Below are positions 24,968 to 30,891 of a stretch of DNA of 64,000 nucleotides, piece after piece. This stretch comes from Thermotoga caldifontis AZM44c09. Its GTDB lineage: Bacteria > Thermotogota > Thermotogae > Thermotogales > DSM-5069. Position numbers and translations under genes: made by a program. How positions within the stretch are numbered: position 1 is the stretch's first letter; each line of letters opens with the position of its first letter. The DNA lies in assembly GCF_000828655.1 (NCBI RefSeq), contig NZ_AP014509.1, forward strand, positions 124,001 through 188,000, read 5' to 3'. The notes beneath the pieces are model-generated. The model was not told where the DNA came from. It was given only the letters and a program-made list of their open reading frames with translations, and ran no database searches.

Positions 24968-25122
24968 TCCTTCTTCGTGAAGATTCTACGATATCGTCCG
25001 ACACGATAAGCTCGCTCAGGCTGAATTCAAAGTGAACGCGTTTGAAACCTGGTGTGAGAGCACCACCTTCGTGGATTCACTTTTTCTTAACGGAGCTGGC
25101 GTGTGGCACGTTACTTGGTTAG

Positions 25123-25138
25123 TTGTACAATTGTGCAA
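25123..25138 (+). promoter_or_regulatory. Palindromic operator upstream of the ArsR-family gene
   Basis: TTGTACAATTGTGCAA is a 16-bp inverted repeat with one mismatched pair, ending 11 bases before the ArsR start and overlapping where RNA polymerase would sit. ArsR-family repressors bind such elements in their own promoters. Confidence 0.5.
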
Positions 25139-25149
25139 GAAGGAGGAGA

Positions 25150-25419
25150 ATGATGGATCCAGAAAGGATCTTCAAAGCTCTGGCATGCAAAAGAAGAATA
25201 GACATCATCAAGCAGGTGGCGAAACAGGACCTTTGCATCTGCGAACTCGAAGTCGCGAACCACATCGACAAAACGACCATCTCGAGGCACATAGCCGTCC
25301 TGCAGAATGCGGGGATCATCGAACTGAGAAGGGAAGGACCGAGGAAGAGAATCGTCCTCAAAGATCCAAGAATTCTCGAACTGATCGATCTGGCGGAAAA
25401 GATCTCTGAACAGAAATGA
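25150..25419 (+). CDS. ArsR/SmtB-family regulator
   Basis: An 89-residue winged-helix repressor with the ArsR pattern: FKALACKRRIDIIKQV, then KQDLCICELEVANHIDKTTISRHIAVLQNAGII, and a C-terminal wing and helix. The CxC pair in DLCICEL matches the alpha-3 metal or metalloid site (ELCVCDL in ArsR), so it may sense a thiol-reactive metal or a redox signal. It starts at ATG 25150 (or the next ATG, 25153) behind AGGAGGAG. It is the first gene of a three-gene operon with a ferredoxin and an HdrA-like protein, its likely targets. Confidence 0.9.
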   Translation: MMDPERIFKALACKRRIDIIKQVAKQDLCICELEVANHIDKTTISRHIAVLQNAGIIELRREGPRKRIVLKDPRILELIDLAEKISEQK

Positions 25420-25441
25420 GTGCCGTGAAGGAGGAGACGGC

Positions 25442-25654
25442 ATGGCAAAGAACTGGTATCCCATCATCGATTACGAAAAGTGCGTTGGCTGTCTGACCTG
25501 CGCGAATTTCTGTCCCCACGGAGTCTACACAGTCAGAGACGGAAAACCCGTCGTCACCAACCCTTTAGAATGCGTTGAGTTCTGCAGAGGGTGCCAGAAA
25601 CTCTGCGACTACGGTGCGATAACTTACTCGGCGGAGGTGAAAGCACATGGGTAA
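25442..25654 (+). CDS. Two-cluster [4Fe-4S] ferredoxin-type protein
   Basis: A 70-residue protein with CVGCLTCANFCP and a second cysteine set CVEFCRGCQKLC. The first is a standard cluster motif; the second has the spacing CxxxCxxCxxxC, slightly non-standard and seen in some HdrA- or NIL-type ferredoxins. It is likely the electron donor or acceptor for the protein encoded next, with which it overlaps by eight bases. It lies 22 bases after the ArsR gene. Confidence 0.9.
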   Translation: MAKNWYPIIDYEKCVGCLTCANFCPHGVYTVRDGKPVVTNPLECVEFCRGCQKLCDYGAITYSAEVKAHG

Positions 25655-26003
25655 GAAGGGATTGTTACTGTGTGTCTGTCAAGGTACATGCCCATCTTTT
25701 CAGAAGATGAACGTTTTCGAAGTCCTGAACGCGATAAGAAGAGAGAACCTTGTCGATTTCGTTGCACTCCATCCCCAGCTCTGCGCCGATGACGGAGATA
25801 TGTACCTCAAAACGCTGACCAAAGATGGAGAGATAGAAAAGCTCTACGTTGCGGGCTGCGATCCTGCGATGCAGAGAAAAATGTTCCGTGACGCGTTCGA
25901 GGCGAGCAACTTCGACAAGTCCAGGCACCTTGGTGTCGACATAAGGAACATGACCACAGAGCAGGCGATCGAAGCCATCAAAAATCTTATAAAGAACAGC
26001 TGA
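25647..26003 (+). CDS. Small cysteine protein resembling the N-terminal domain of HdrA
   Basis: A 118-residue protein with LLCVCQGTCPSFQ, HPQLCADDGDMYL, VAGCDPAMQRKMFRDAFEA and HLGVDIRNMT. The order and spacing recall the N-terminal domain of heterodisulfide reductase HdrA (xCxCGxN, xxMCSxxGQ, AACSPRMHExTFR, NIRE) without the flavin and ferredoxin domains. It could be a thiol/disulfide or cluster-binding partner of the neighbouring ferredoxin. I do not know a characterised homologue. Four cysteines are placed to bind a cluster or form disulfides. Confidence 0.65.
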   Translation: MGKKGLLLCVCQGTCPSFQKMNVFEVLNAIRRENLVDFVALHPQLCADDGDMYLKTLTKDGEIEKLYVAGCDPAMQRKMFRDAFEASNFDKSRHLGVDIRNMTTEQAIEAIKNLIKNS

Positions 26004-26102
26004 AAGGATTCCGGGCGCGCTCACCCGACCGAACCTGTCGAAGATCATCTGAATTCAAACCTCACGAAACGAAGCTGAAACACACACCCCCATATCCCGG
26101 TT

Positions 26103-26108
26103 TATAAT
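26103..26108 (+). promoter_or_regulatory. -10 element of the pyrimidine operon leader
   Basis: TATAAT lies 27 bases upstream of the leader ORF start codon. No good -35 hexamer stands at 16-18 bases, so the promoter is only half supported. A transcript from here would contain the whole leader ORF and both terminators. Confidence 0.5.
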
Positions 26109-26134
26109 CTCAACTCAGAAAACGGGGTGAGCGC

Positions 26135-26290
26135 GTGCGAGTAAAGACAGTGATGAAACTCGACCTGATTCTGAATAAATGTAAGCTCAGTCCAGAAGGG
26201 GCTTTCAAAGCCCCTTTTATTTTAAAGAGCGTGAACTTCCAAAGGGCCGAAAGGCCCTTTTATTTTGCCTCAACGGAGGTGGAAGGATGA
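26135..26290 (+). CDS. pyr operon leader ORF (candidate attenuation leader peptide)
   Basis: A 51-codon frame starting GTG 26135, five bases after GGGGTGA. It stays open through both terminator hairpins (26196-26216 and 26241-26260) and stops at TGA 26288-26290, overlapping the pyrB ATG (ATGA). Because the T-runs of the terminators are translated, the peptide holds APFILKS and RPFYFAS. E. coli pyrBI has a 44-residue leader that couples translation to RNA polymerase pausing at UTP-poor T-runs; this leader shares that geometry. The ORF also contains AGTCCAGA, which resembles part of the Bacillus PyrR-binding loop. Expression of the peptide is not proven by sequence. Confidence 0.6.
   Translation: MRVKTVMKLDLILNKCKLSPEGAFKAPFILKSVNFQRAERPFYFASTEVEG
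26196..26224 (+). terminator. First intrinsic terminator in the pyr leader
   Basis: AAGGGGCTTT and AAAGCCCCTT (26196-26205 and 26207-26216) form a perfect stem closing on a very tight loop, followed by TTATTTTA. It lies inside the leader ORF, about 90 bases before pyrB. Confidence 0.85.
26241..26266 (+). terminator. Second intrinsic terminator in the pyr leader
   Basis: AAAGGGCC, a GAAA tetraloop and GGCCCTTT (26241-26260), followed by TATTTTG. It is 45 bases downstream of the first hairpin and has the same T-run type. The pyrB Shine-Dalgarno site (GGAGGTGG) follows at 26275-26282. Confidence 0.85.
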
Positions 26291-27213
26291 GACACCTTCT
26301 TGACATCAAAGATCTCAGCAGAAAAGAGATCGAAGCCATCCTCGAGCGCGCGATGCGGTACAAATCACTCAAGAATTATCCAGAAACACTGCGAGGGAAG
26401 TTCGTCCTGACAGCCTTCTTCGAACCTTCCACGAGGACCAAGGTCTCTTTCCAGAAGGCCGCGTTGAACCTCGGAGCGCACGTGGTTGACTTCGCACCGG
26501 AAAGTTCTTCCCTCCAGAAAGGCGAGACCGATCTGGACACGATCCTGACGCTCAACATGATGAGCTTCGATTGTCTCGTCATCAGAATCAGGAGGAACGG
26601 TGCCCCAGCGGAGTTCGCGAAGTACGTGGACTGTGCCGTGGTGAACGCGGGCGACGGCACGAACGAACACCCCACTCAGGCGCTGCTCGACGCCATGACC
26701 ATGCTGGAACATTTTGGAACGCTGAAACTGAGGGTCGCGATCGTGGGAGACATCGTGCACTCGCGCGTCGCAAGATCGCTGACAGAGCTTCTGAACAAGT
26801 TCGACGCCGAGGTGAGAATGGTGGGACCAGAAGGGTTCGTTCCGGAAAGCTTTGACGGTGTGAGCTTGATTACGCATTCTCTCGAAGAGGGCCTGCACAA
26901 TGCTGATGTCGTCTACGCGCTGAGGATTCAGAAAGAAAGGCTCGAACAGAGTTATTCGAACATCGATGACTTCTTCCGCACGCTACAGATAAACTCCAGA
27001 ACGATCCAGATCGCACCCAGGCACGCCGTCCTGATGCACCCGGGCCCGTTCAACAGGAACGTGGAAGTCTCAGACGATGTGGTCTACTCTGAAAGGTCGA
27101 AGATCCTCGAGCAGGTCAGAAACGGTGTGTTCGTGAGAATGGCGGTTCTCGAGTACGCGATGGGAGTGATCGAGTTTGAGAGCGTACGATCCGTGGAAAC
27201 GTCGCTGGCTTGA
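26287..27213 (+). CDS. pyrB: Aspartate carbamoyltransferase catalytic chain
   Basis: Condenses carbamoyl phosphate and aspartate, the committed step of pyrimidine synthesis. The 308-residue protein has the carbamoyl-phosphate loop FFEPSTRTKVSFQKAA (near residue 45), HPTQALLDAMTM and the C-terminal MHPGPFNR. It is a plain catalytic chain: no regulatory PyrI domain is fused and no pyrI gene follows, unlike the PyrB-PyrI fusion I recall in Thermotoga maritima, so allosteric control by nucleotides may be absent. Its start overlaps the leader ORF stop and its end overlaps pyrC by 38 bases. Confidence 0.96.
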   Translation: MRHLLDIKDLSRKEIEAILERAMRYKSLKNYPETLRGKFVLTAFFEPSTRTKVSFQKAALNLGAHVVDFAPESSSLQKGETDLDTILTLNMMSFDCLVIRIRRNGAPAEFAKYVDCAVVNAGDGTNEHPTQALLDAMTMLEHFGTLKLRVAIVGDIVHSRVARSLTELLNKFDAEVRMVGPEGFVPESFDGVSLITHSLEEGLHNADVVYALRIQKERLEQSYSNIDDFFRTLQINSRTIQIAPRHAVLMHPGPFNRNVEVSDDVVYSERSKILEQVRNGVFVRMAVLEYAMGVIEFESVRSVETSLA

Positions 27214-28297
27214 CGTCGAATTGGACCTGCCCGAACGAAGAAAAGCCCTTCTCGCCTGCCCCGCGTTCTTCGACATGCACACACACGTGAGGTTGAACGG
27301 ACAGGAAGACTACGAATCGCTCCAGAAGGCGGCGATCGCCGGCGGTTTCGGTGCCCTTCTGATCCAGCCGAACACGAAACCCGAGCTTTCGAATCCAGAG
27401 GTTCTGAATCTGCACGTTCAGCTCGCGAAAGACAAGATCGTGAAATTCTACTGGGCCGTGTCCCTGTTCGGAGAACTGGAGCCGGACGGAGAGAGAACGC
27501 TGTGCTATTCCAACGACGGTATAGCGTACGACACGACGAAGATCCTCAACGCGTTCAGAAAGAAAAAACCGCATCTTCTGCTCGATCACAGCCAGCTGCA
27601 CGAACTTGGAGGCATCCTCTACGAACCTGCGGAACTGAACTTGCCCAAACGGCCCGTCCACAGCGAGGCCGTCTCCATCTTCAGGAACGTGATGCTTGGA
27701 ACCGAGTACGGTTTCAGCAAGTTCCACATTCAGCATGTTTCGACGGAGCTTTCCATCGAGACGATACAGCATCTTCGAAGGTACACCGATGTGAGCTGTG
27801 AGGTGACACCGCACCATCTTTTCTTCACCATCAAAGATGTGAAAAACACGAACTTCAAGATCAACCCACCACTCGCCACAGAAGAGGACAGGAGGGTCCT
27901 CCTCGAGGCCGTTCGAAAGAACATCATCGATGTGCTCGCGACGGACCACGCGCCACATCCGGAAAAACCAAACGATTTTCAAAGCGCTCCCTTCGGAACC
28001 AGCAACATCGAGGTGGCCTTCAGCGCGTTCTACACCGTCATCGGTCAGCTCGAAACGGTGGCGGAAAAGCTCACCGCCGCCCCACGCAAGGTATTGGGAC
28101 TTTCGGGAACCTTCGATCTGGGCAACGTGACCGTCATCGATCCGAACGCCGAATGGGTCGTCGATGCGAAGAAATTTCACAGCAAGGGAAAAAACTGCGT
28201 CTTCGACGGCACCAAATTGAAAGGGAAGATAATAGGTGTGAAGCTTTCAAACAGGTGGGTGTACTGGGATGGAGAATTTCTCTCTGAGCAGGTGTGA
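27176..28297 (+). CDS. pyrC: Dihydroorotase
   Basis: Zinc amidohydrolase closing carbamoyl-aspartate to dihydroorotate. The 373-residue protein has the metal-binding HxH in FDMHTHVRLNGQ (near residue 35), IQPNTKPEL and ATDHAPHPEKP near residue 260, with HSEAVSIFR between. It starts at TTG 27176, inside pyrB; the 38-base overlap is long but the N-terminus reads naturally. It overlaps pyrK by 29 bases. It resembles class I dihydroorotases in length, but I could not pick out the carbamylated lysine with confidence. Confidence 0.93.
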   Translation: MRAYDPWKRRWLDVELDLPERRKALLACPAFFDMHTHVRLNGQEDYESLQKAAIAGGFGALLIQPNTKPELSNPEVLNLHVQLAKDKIVKFYWAVSLFGELEPDGERTLCYSNDGIAYDTTKILNAFRKKKPHLLLDHSQLHELGGILYEPAELNLPKRPVHSEAVSIFRNVMLGTEYGFSKFHIQHVSTELSIETIQHLRRYTDVSCEVTPHHLFFTIKDVKNTNFKINPPLATEEDRRVLLEAVRKNIIDVLATDHAPHPEKPNDFQSAPFGTSNIEVAFSAFYTVIGQLETVAEKLTAAPRKVLGLSGTFDLGNVTVIDPNAEWVVDAKKFHSKGKNCVFDGTKLKGKIIGVKLSNRWVYWDGEFLSEQV

Positions 28298-28925: not shown

Positions 28926-29719
28926 GACCACCCATCGTGATCGCTTCTGGTGTTGGAGGCATGGGAGAATACCTCAAACTGATAGATCCACGATACATCG
29001 GTGCCTACACCCTCAAGACCATCACCTTCAAACCGAGATTGGGAAATCCTCCACCCAGGCTCATCGCCACGGAGCGTTATCTGATCAACAGCATAGGCCT
29101 CGAAAACGTCGGTGTGGAGAAGTTCATCGAAGAGCTTGAAAATGGACTTTACGAAGAGTTGTTCAGAAAGGTCAAGGTGATCTTCAGCTTCGCAGGGGAA
29201 GATTTCGAAGAGTATCTGAAGGTCGCAGAGAGAATGGTGCCCCACCAAGATAGATTTGTGGCGTTCGAGTGCAACTTCTCCTGTCCGAACGTGGACTTCA
29301 ACCCGCTCTCGGACACAAGCCAGTTGAAGAAGATGCTGATCGAGCTGAGGAAAAAGCTCGACGTTTTTCTCATCGCCAAACTCGGCATCGAAGGTGCGTT
29401 CATCGAACAGCTCGCCGAGCTCGTTGAAGAGTGCGGTTGGAACGGTGTGACGATCATCAACACGATTCGGGCGTTGCACATCGACGGCGAAACCCTCATC
29501 AAGGGTGGCATCTCCGGACCCATTCTGAAACCCATCGCGCTGAGGGCTGTGTACGAAGTGAGAAACAGAACGAATCTGTACATCATCGCGTCTGGAGGTA
29601 TCATGGACGAAACAGACGCTCAGCATTTCTTCGAAGTCGGTGCGAACGCAGTGAGCATCGGAACCGCTCTGTACAGAGATCCGACGATCGTTGAGAGGAT
29701 CGCGAAAAGATTTTTGTGA
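28916..29719 (+). CDS. pyrD: Dihydroorotate dehydrogenase, class 1B catalytic subunit
   Basis: FMN-dependent TIM-barrel enzyme that oxidises dihydroorotate to orotate. The 267-residue protein shows TLKTITFKPRLGNPPPR, NCFSCPN-like (here CNFSCPNVDFNP), KLGIEGAFIEQLAEL and GGISGPILKPIALRAV, with the FMN-phosphate loop IIASGGIMDETDA. Pairing with pyrK makes it class 1B (NAD-linked). Class 1B enzymes use a cysteine as base in a flexible loop; the Cys in ECNFSCPN is the candidate. The start GTG overlaps pyrK by ten bases. Confidence 0.95.
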   Translation: MELRPPIVIASGVGGMGEYLKLIDPRYIGAYTLKTITFKPRLGNPPPRLIATERYLINSIGLENVGVEKFIEELENGLYEELFRKVKVIFSFAGEDFEEYLKVAERMVPHQDRFVAFECNFSCPNVDFNPLSDTSQLKKMLIELRKKLDVFLIAKLGIEGAFIEQLAELVEECGWNGVTIINTIRALHIDGETLIKGGISGPILKPIALRAVYEVRNRTNLYIIASGGIMDETDAQHFFEVGANAVSIGTALYRDPTIVERIAKRFL

Positions 29720-29733
29720 AGGAGGAATCTTTC

Positions 29734-30891
29734 ATGTTCACAAGCTATCTTCCCACGAAGATCGTTTTCGGTGTCGGTGCGATCGAAAAGCTTCCGAATC
29801 TCGTGAAGAACTATGGACGAAAAGCCTTGATCGTCACGGGAAGAAAGAGCACCAAGCAAACCGGACTGCTCGACAAAGTCAGAGGCATGCTCGAGGCCGT
29901 GGGGATCGGAACCGTGGTGTTCGACAAGGTTCAACCCAATCCCATCAGCGACGATGTGGACGAAGCTGCCAAGATCGCGATCGAGCAGAACGTGGATTTC
30001 GTGATAGGGCTCGGTGGAGGAAGCGCCATAGACTCGGCCAAGGCCATCGCGATCGCCGCTGCGATGAAGGATGCCTTCTGGAACTACACACACGCCGGAG
30101 CCGGCAAGAAACCAGGCAGGGCCCTGCCCATCGTCGCGATTCCCACCACGCACGGCACCGGCACCGAGGCCGATCCCTTCGCGGTGATAACCAATCCCAG
30201 GACTAAAGAAAAAGTCGGTATAGGCTACGATGTGATCTTTCCGAAACTTTCCATCGTCGATCCAACGCTCATGGTCAGTCTTCCAAGGGACCAAACCGCC
30301 TACACCTCGATGGACGCGTTCTACCATTCCTTGGAGGCCTTTCTGAACATCAACGCTAATCCCTATTCCGATCTGCTCGCCGAGGATTCCATGAAGAGGA
30401 TCGTCTCCTTCCTCATGAGGGCCTACACGAACGGTCAGGACATCGAGGCCAGGACGAATCTCGCCTGGGCCAGCACCGAAGCGGGCATCACCGAAACTCT
30501 CACGGGCGTCATAGCGAACCATGCCATAGAGCATGGACTGAGCGGATTCAACGAAAAACTCCCACACGGTCTTGGCCTGTGCATCACAGGACCGTACCTG
30601 CTCGAGTACATGTTCGAAGAATGCAAAGAACGGCTCGCGGCGCTGGCGAAGGAAGTTTTCAACATACAACAGTACAGCGTCAGCAAAGCGGCGAGACTGT
30701 TCATCGAAAAGCTCTACGAATTCCAAGAACTTTTCGATCTGAACCAGAGGCTTTCGAAGTTCGGTTTCAAGGAAGAAGACCTTCCCGAGATCGCGGCCGT
30801 TGCGTACAGGATCATGAAAGGCGTGGTCGTGAAGAGTCCAAAGAAGCTCGAAGAGAAAGACCTCGTTGAGATAATGAAGAAGGCACTGTGA
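29734..30891 (+). CDS. Iron-containing alcohol dehydrogenase inside the pyr operon
   Basis: A 385-residue group III (Fe-dependent) alcohol dehydrogenase. It has the NAD(P) loop GLGGGSAIDSAKAIA (near residue 96) and the metal-ligand segments TGTEADPF, SMDAFYHSLEAF and ANHAIEHGLSGFNEKLPHG. The start ATG 29734 follows GGAGGAA; it lies 14 bases after pyrD and 15 before pyrF, so it is clearly cotranscribed. The enzyme is not part of pyrimidine synthesis; disposal of NADH made by PyrK/PyrD is one possible link, but that is inference. Butanol or lactaldehyde-type substrates are possible. Confidence 0.93.
   Translation: MFTSYLPTKIVFGVGAIEKLPNLVKNYGRKALIVTGRKSTKQTGLLDKVRGMLEAVGIGTVVFDKVQPNPISDDVDEAAKIAIEQNVDFVIGLGGGSAIDSAKAIAIAAAMKDAFWNYTHAGAGKKPGRALPIVAIPTTHGTGTEADPFAVITNPRTKEKVGIGYDVIFPKLSIVDPTLMVSLPRDQTAYTSMDAFYHSLEAFLNINANPYSDLLAEDSMKRIVSFLMRAYTNGQDIEARTNLAWASTEAGITETLTGVIANHAIEHGLSGFNEKLPHGLGLCITGPYLLEYMFEECKERLAALAKEVFNIQQYSVSKAARLFIEKLYEFQELFDLNQRLSKFGFKEEDLPEIAAVAYRIMKGVVVKSPKKLEEKDLVEIMKKAL

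Follow-up and report, generated by a model that had tools for sequence, protein, structure and literature searches.

The leader of the pyr operon in Thermotoga caldifontis AZM44c09 is probably a translation-coupled transcription attenuator of the kind known from E. coli pyrBI, with a second in-frame terminator that appears to have been added in this genus. We analysed a stretch of 64,000 nucleotides (the window), which is part of a 2.01 Mb chromosome of a thermophile of the genus Pseudothermotoga, together with pyrimidine gene leaders of related genomes. A literature search, outside which most subscription journals lay, found no description of such attenuation for Thermotogota.

The leader of pyrB and its proposed function

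A probable −10 element, TATAAT, lies at 26103–26108 (this and all other features below are on the forward strand). The same hexamer is present in L003, L004, L005 and L006, and reading of the leader sequence revealed no good −35 element accompanying it. A Shine-Dalgarno-like GGGGTGA follows at 26124–26130 (anti-Shine-Dalgarno duplex, −6.3 kcal/mol), of which GGTG is common to the five Pseudothermotoga genomes. The leader ORF at 26135–26290 starts with GTG at 26135, contains 51 sense codons (26135–26287) and ends with a TGA at 26288–26290 that overlaps the ATG of pyrB at 26287. Two intrinsic terminators, recognized by folding and by alignment within the genus, lie inside this ORF. T1 (26195–26223) consists of GAAGGGGCTT, TCA and AAGCCCCTTT at 26195–26217, with a T-run as far as 26223, and T2 (26241–26266) consists of AAAGGGCC, GAAA and GGCCCTTT at 26241–26260, with a T-run as far as 26266. 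The predicted fold of the leader contains both (z = −2.7 for the whole leader). The Shine-Dalgarno sequence of pyrB, GGAGGTGG at 26275–26282, falls within the 3′ end of the leader ORF, and its GGAGGTG is kept in five of five genomes. Direct reading of the sequence bore out what the earlier note had described, namely GGGGTGA, the GTG start, the 51 codons, the two terminators and the overlap of TGA with the pyrB ATG. The 51-residue leader product matched no NCBIfam family, and no second copy of the leader was found elsewhere in the genome.

The first gene of the operon, pyrB, encodes the catalytic subunit of aspartate carbamoyltransferase (26287–27213; NCBIfam NF002032, E 6e-103), and an NCBIfam scan gave the gene order pyrB-pyrC-pyrK-pyrD-iron alcohol dehydrogenase-pyrF-pyrE. 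The iron-containing alcohol dehydrogenase gene between pyrD and pyrF occupies 29716–30891, and pyrC, with a TTG start, overlaps the 3′ end of pyrB by 38 nt (27176–27213).

We propose that transcription begins just after 26108 and would give a short leader RNA. A ribosome close behind the polymerase would cover the 5′ arm of T1 and then that of T2, so that neither hairpin could form and the polymerase would enter pyrBCKD-F-E; finishing on the pyrB ATG, this ribosome could re-initiate there. A polymerase outrunning the ribosome would be terminated at T1 and then at T2. The likely signal is pyrimidine supply, with low UTP slowing the polymerase at U-runs, and T1's own UUUUAUUUU would be a slow stretch ahead of T2.

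Chance and conservation of the open frame in Pseudothermotoga

The earlier note had argued that a frame rarely stays open through two terminators and ends exactly on the next start by chance. On shuffling of the single sequence, an ORF preceded by a Shine-Dalgarno sequence reached T1 in 4.5% of cases (P ~0.045), and the frame was open through to pyrB in ~18% (~0.18) when the start and the hairpins were held fixed. The open frame in the single window sequence is only moderately unlikely. The stop exactly on the ATG carries little weight, because pyrB begins with ATGAGR (GTGAGG in L005), encoding Met-Arg with TGA at the second base, in all five members of the genus, and any frame open there must end at this TGA. 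We therefore rejected this coincidence as independent evidence; that part of the argument is automatic, and the part on the open frame gains its force through conservation.

In each of the five Pseudothermotoga genomes examined, the leader ORF is open from its GTG as far as the beginning of pyrB; these genomes represent three separate lineages at most. Derived from the ~18% figure, the probability that three lineages are open by chance is ~0.8%, indels not counted, which is modest within the genus alone. Leader length is equal in four of the genomes and 12 nt shorter in L006. The genus alignment showed that the register of a hairpin has shifted three times, each shift being offset with a net change of 0 or a multiple of 3. 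Two of the shifts are in L006, where the distance from AGTCC to T1 is one base shorter and the T1 loop one base longer, and where 13 bases are missing ahead of T2 and its loop has gained one. The third, in the line of L004 and L005, combines the loss of a base before T2 with the gain of a base behind it. No uncompensated frame-breaking indel or stop was seen among these five close relatives while the hairpins were kept, and the alignment of upstream regions that had been suggested earlier showed both frame and stop kept in all of them.

The leader peptide itself drifts, with 7 synonymous and 26 non-synonymous codon differences between L001 and L005. Selection on the peptide was considered and rejected, as non-synonymous differences dominate. 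Since the peptide is not conserved, it is the act of translation, or the reading frame, that seems to be kept and not the product. Judged from the aligned leaders, conservation, rather than the single sequence, is what lifts the open frame above chance.

Separately, GAATARATGTRA at 26173–26184, ~12 nt before T1, is kept in all five leaders. The elemental pause consensus is G-10 Y-1 G+1, and GAATARATGTRA fits it in three of the five.

Leader ORFs before pyrimidine genes across the class and in known systems

We sought pyrB or the fused pyrBI in 103 genomes of the Thermotogota class and read the upstream regions, scoring a terminator as passing when a leader ORF ended ≤14 nt before the hairpin, inside it or beyond it. 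A leader ORF passed at 20 of 24 terminators before pyrB, pyrBI or pyrR-pyrB, where shuffles led us to expect 2.4, and at 13 of 14 loci when one per genus was taken (1.3 expected from shuffles); as the thresholds were set after viewing the leaders, the P values of this comparison are to be taken as effect sizes. Two loci failed (L039 and L054) and two missed the limits narrowly (L032 and L055). By this test, E. coli pyrL passes as well. As a background from the organism's own genome, only one of the 15 other terminators ahead of genes in a 400 kb sample passed the same criterion, and this single pass looks like a tRNA gene read as protein. In the passing loci, the leader stop is at most 14 nt short of the hairpin start and in some far past it; the limit of 14 nt is within the 27 nt over which an E. 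coli ribosome can still repress a terminator (PMC4824070). Two further relatives, one of them labelled Dictyoglomota, also have such a leader. With a difference of two bases in the T-run there, the reading frame beyond the hairpin is altered and the stop lies elsewhere, which shows that the position of the stop is not what is kept.

Two terminators were seen in this genus only, other Thermotogota having a single one near the T2 position. T1 therefore looks like an addition, and from this comparison we judge T1 to be the added terminator and T2 the ancestral one. The earlier suggestion that the E. coli logic had arisen here in doubled form holds for the doubling, which is confined to this genus, and not for the origin, since the arrangement is widespread in Thermotogota. 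Taken together, these results suggest that ribosome-gated attenuation of pyrimidine genes, E. coli textbook material, is a general feature of a distant phylum of thermophiles, and they predict tight coupling of transcription and translation in Thermotogota at high temperature.

Upstream genes also end near terminators in some loci. Before Thermotoga-type pyrBI (L070–L077), the upstream gene has ...SHR as its last residues, and its TAG falls within the terminator hairpin (GCACCGTTAGGTGC), at eight of eight loci; from this sequence arrangement, a full-length upstream gene may work the same ribosome gate there. The stop of the upstream gene adjoins the terminator hairpin before pyrBI at a distance of 0–2 nt in L066–L068 and L095. 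In the neighbouring family (L056–L068), the ribosome-binding site of pyrBI often has six consecutive G (ACGTGGGGGGAG or GGTGGGGGGAAA).

The likeness to the E. coli pyrBI/pyrL leader extends to a short ORF with a good Shine-Dalgarno sequence, an intrinsic terminator inside the ORF, a stop that adjoins pyrB (pyrL ends 3 nt before it) and a peptide that is itself unimportant. In E. coli, the ribosome suppresses the terminator (PMC4824070, PMC5021804, PMC10135430). The window leader, from another phylum, differs in having two terminators instead of one, a U-poor leader before T1, a GTG start and an unfused pyrB without pyrI. It shares the architecture of the pyrBI attenuator and would work in the same way, and we file it as a variant rather than a member of the pyrBI type because a U-rich pause is not clear and we infer both its translation and its dependence on UTP.

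Among thermophiles, the closest precedent for pyr attenuation that depends on the ribosome comes from Thermus. For the pyrR-pyrB leader of Thermus ZO5, Van de Casteele et al. reportedly proposed in 1997 that a translating ribosome is necessary to prevent the terminator; pyrR is said to be the first gene there, and PyrR to bind the leader. Here, by contrast, pyrR lies apart from pyrB and the leader showed no PyrR loop, a linked pyrR occurring only in other Thermotogota families. The Bacillus PyrR attenuators (RF00515) likewise have a terminator in a pyr operon leader and pyrR in the genome, but the window leader has an open frame in place of the PyrR-loop consensus and the conserved antiterminator/anti-antiterminator fold. 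The tandem attenuators of Salmonella mgtCBR also combine, within a single leader, two attenuation steps coupled to translation, and one of these responds to a nucleotide (PMC3641672). They use two separate ORFs and competing hairpins, whereas in the window one ORF runs through two terminators.

The signal and rival explanations

In E. coli, UTP sets the distance between polymerase and ribosome through pauses of the polymerase in a U-rich leader (PMC10135430). In Pseudothermotoga, the leader sequence ahead of T1 is poor in U, with 19–23% T compared to 34% for E. coli pyrL by the same measure, and a classical UTP pause is therefore not visible ahead of T1. In most leaders of other Thermotogota, the 45 nt preceding the hairpin are rich in U. 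UTP-sensitive pausing, proposed in the earlier note, is thus not supported as an evident feature. The first long U-run in the window leader is that of T1 itself, which ends 17 nt ahead of T2 and may serve as a pause for T2. A two-step nucleotide sensor, in which one ribosome suppresses two in-frame terminators and the U-run of T1, as a UTP-sensitive pause for T2, replaces the usual U-rich stretch, is a tentative extension that we regard as somewhat doubtful. If true, this would be one design in a set of several sensors that replace one another across Thermotogota, all acting on a shared ribosome-gated pyr terminator. The class-wide picture suggests that the sensor has been swapped (PyrR beside pyrB, U-rich leader or tandem terminators) and the ribosome gate retained.

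It is improbable that the leader has no regulatory role, with tandem terminators insulating pyrB from upstream and an ORF that is incidental or serves only for re-initiation at pyrB. Terminators near stop codons are common, and leader ORFs may raise expression simply by re-initiation (PMC4833913), so that the ORF here could act in that way alone. However, the promoter-like TATAAT is situated between the preceding genes and the terminators, which therefore sit in the operon's own leader, and the class-wide excess of ORFs running into a hairpin, over shuffles as well as over other terminators of the same genome, argues against insulation. Codon-specific attenuation as in trp, in which the ribosome would stall on the conserved Asn-Arg/Lys-Cys codons some 13–21 nt before T1, would account for GAATARATGTRA being the best kept stretch outside the hairpins. 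This is very improbable, as the leader has no run of codons for one amino acid and no conserved competing antiterminator, and the Asn-Arg/Lys-Cys stretch is not common to other genera.

A version of the device gated by PyrR, similar to the one proposed for Thermus, in which PyrR-UMP on the leader RNA would stop the ribosome and the terminators would form when pyrimidines are plentiful, is unlikely, though less so than either of these. The genome search for pyrR that the earlier note had called for found a good gene (G000:C1:772933-773436; NF003548 above the cut-off, with PyrR among solved chains as the closest), and pyrR is present in all searched members of the family of Pseudothermotoga and also in the neighbouring family. 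AGTCC is kept in all five leaders, the U-poor stretch before T1 leaves room for another sensor, and PyrR-linked operons of other Thermotogota have leader ORFs as well. Against this, pyrR lies beside tgt in an unrelated gene cluster, unlinked to pyrB, and is also kept in genomes of this and the neighbouring family whose pyrBI has no leader terminator. The leader sequence AGTCCAGA, earlier held to be close to a PyrR loop, does not fit the consensus ARUCCNGNGAGGYU: the window has AGUCCAGAAGGGGCU and its relatives AGUCCGAAAGGGGCU and AGUCCAAAGGGGCU. An exact match to this consensus is absent from the genome, and a whole-genome search allowing two mismatches returned hundreds of matches and is uninformative beyond that point. 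An Rfam search of the leader gave sub-threshold chance matches only. No RF00515 match was obtained up to E 10 at 25000–27500, which is weak evidence, since the model finds nothing in the PyrR-linked operons with pyrR beside pyrB either. The consensus fold of the five leaders contains no helix of more than two pairs from the start codon to T1, and hence no antiterminator/anti-antiterminator fold before T1. The absence of a loop match and of conserved structure weakens PyrR as the rival model, although the gene itself exists, and PyrR control of the window leader is possible but not indicated.

The distribution of pyrR across the class bears on the same point. It lies directly before pyrB in several Thermotogota families and was undetected in others; eight genomes with a leader ORF have no detectable pyrR (L007, L009, L010, L011, L014, L020, L026 and L078; completeness 82–99%), and the translation-coupled device would therefore be independent of PyrR in them. 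In the pyrR-pyrB operons of L032–L037, the leader ORFs contain a G-rich hairpin (like AAGCGGRRARRGGG) with a stretch rich in U behind it, a candidate PyrR site unlike RF00515.
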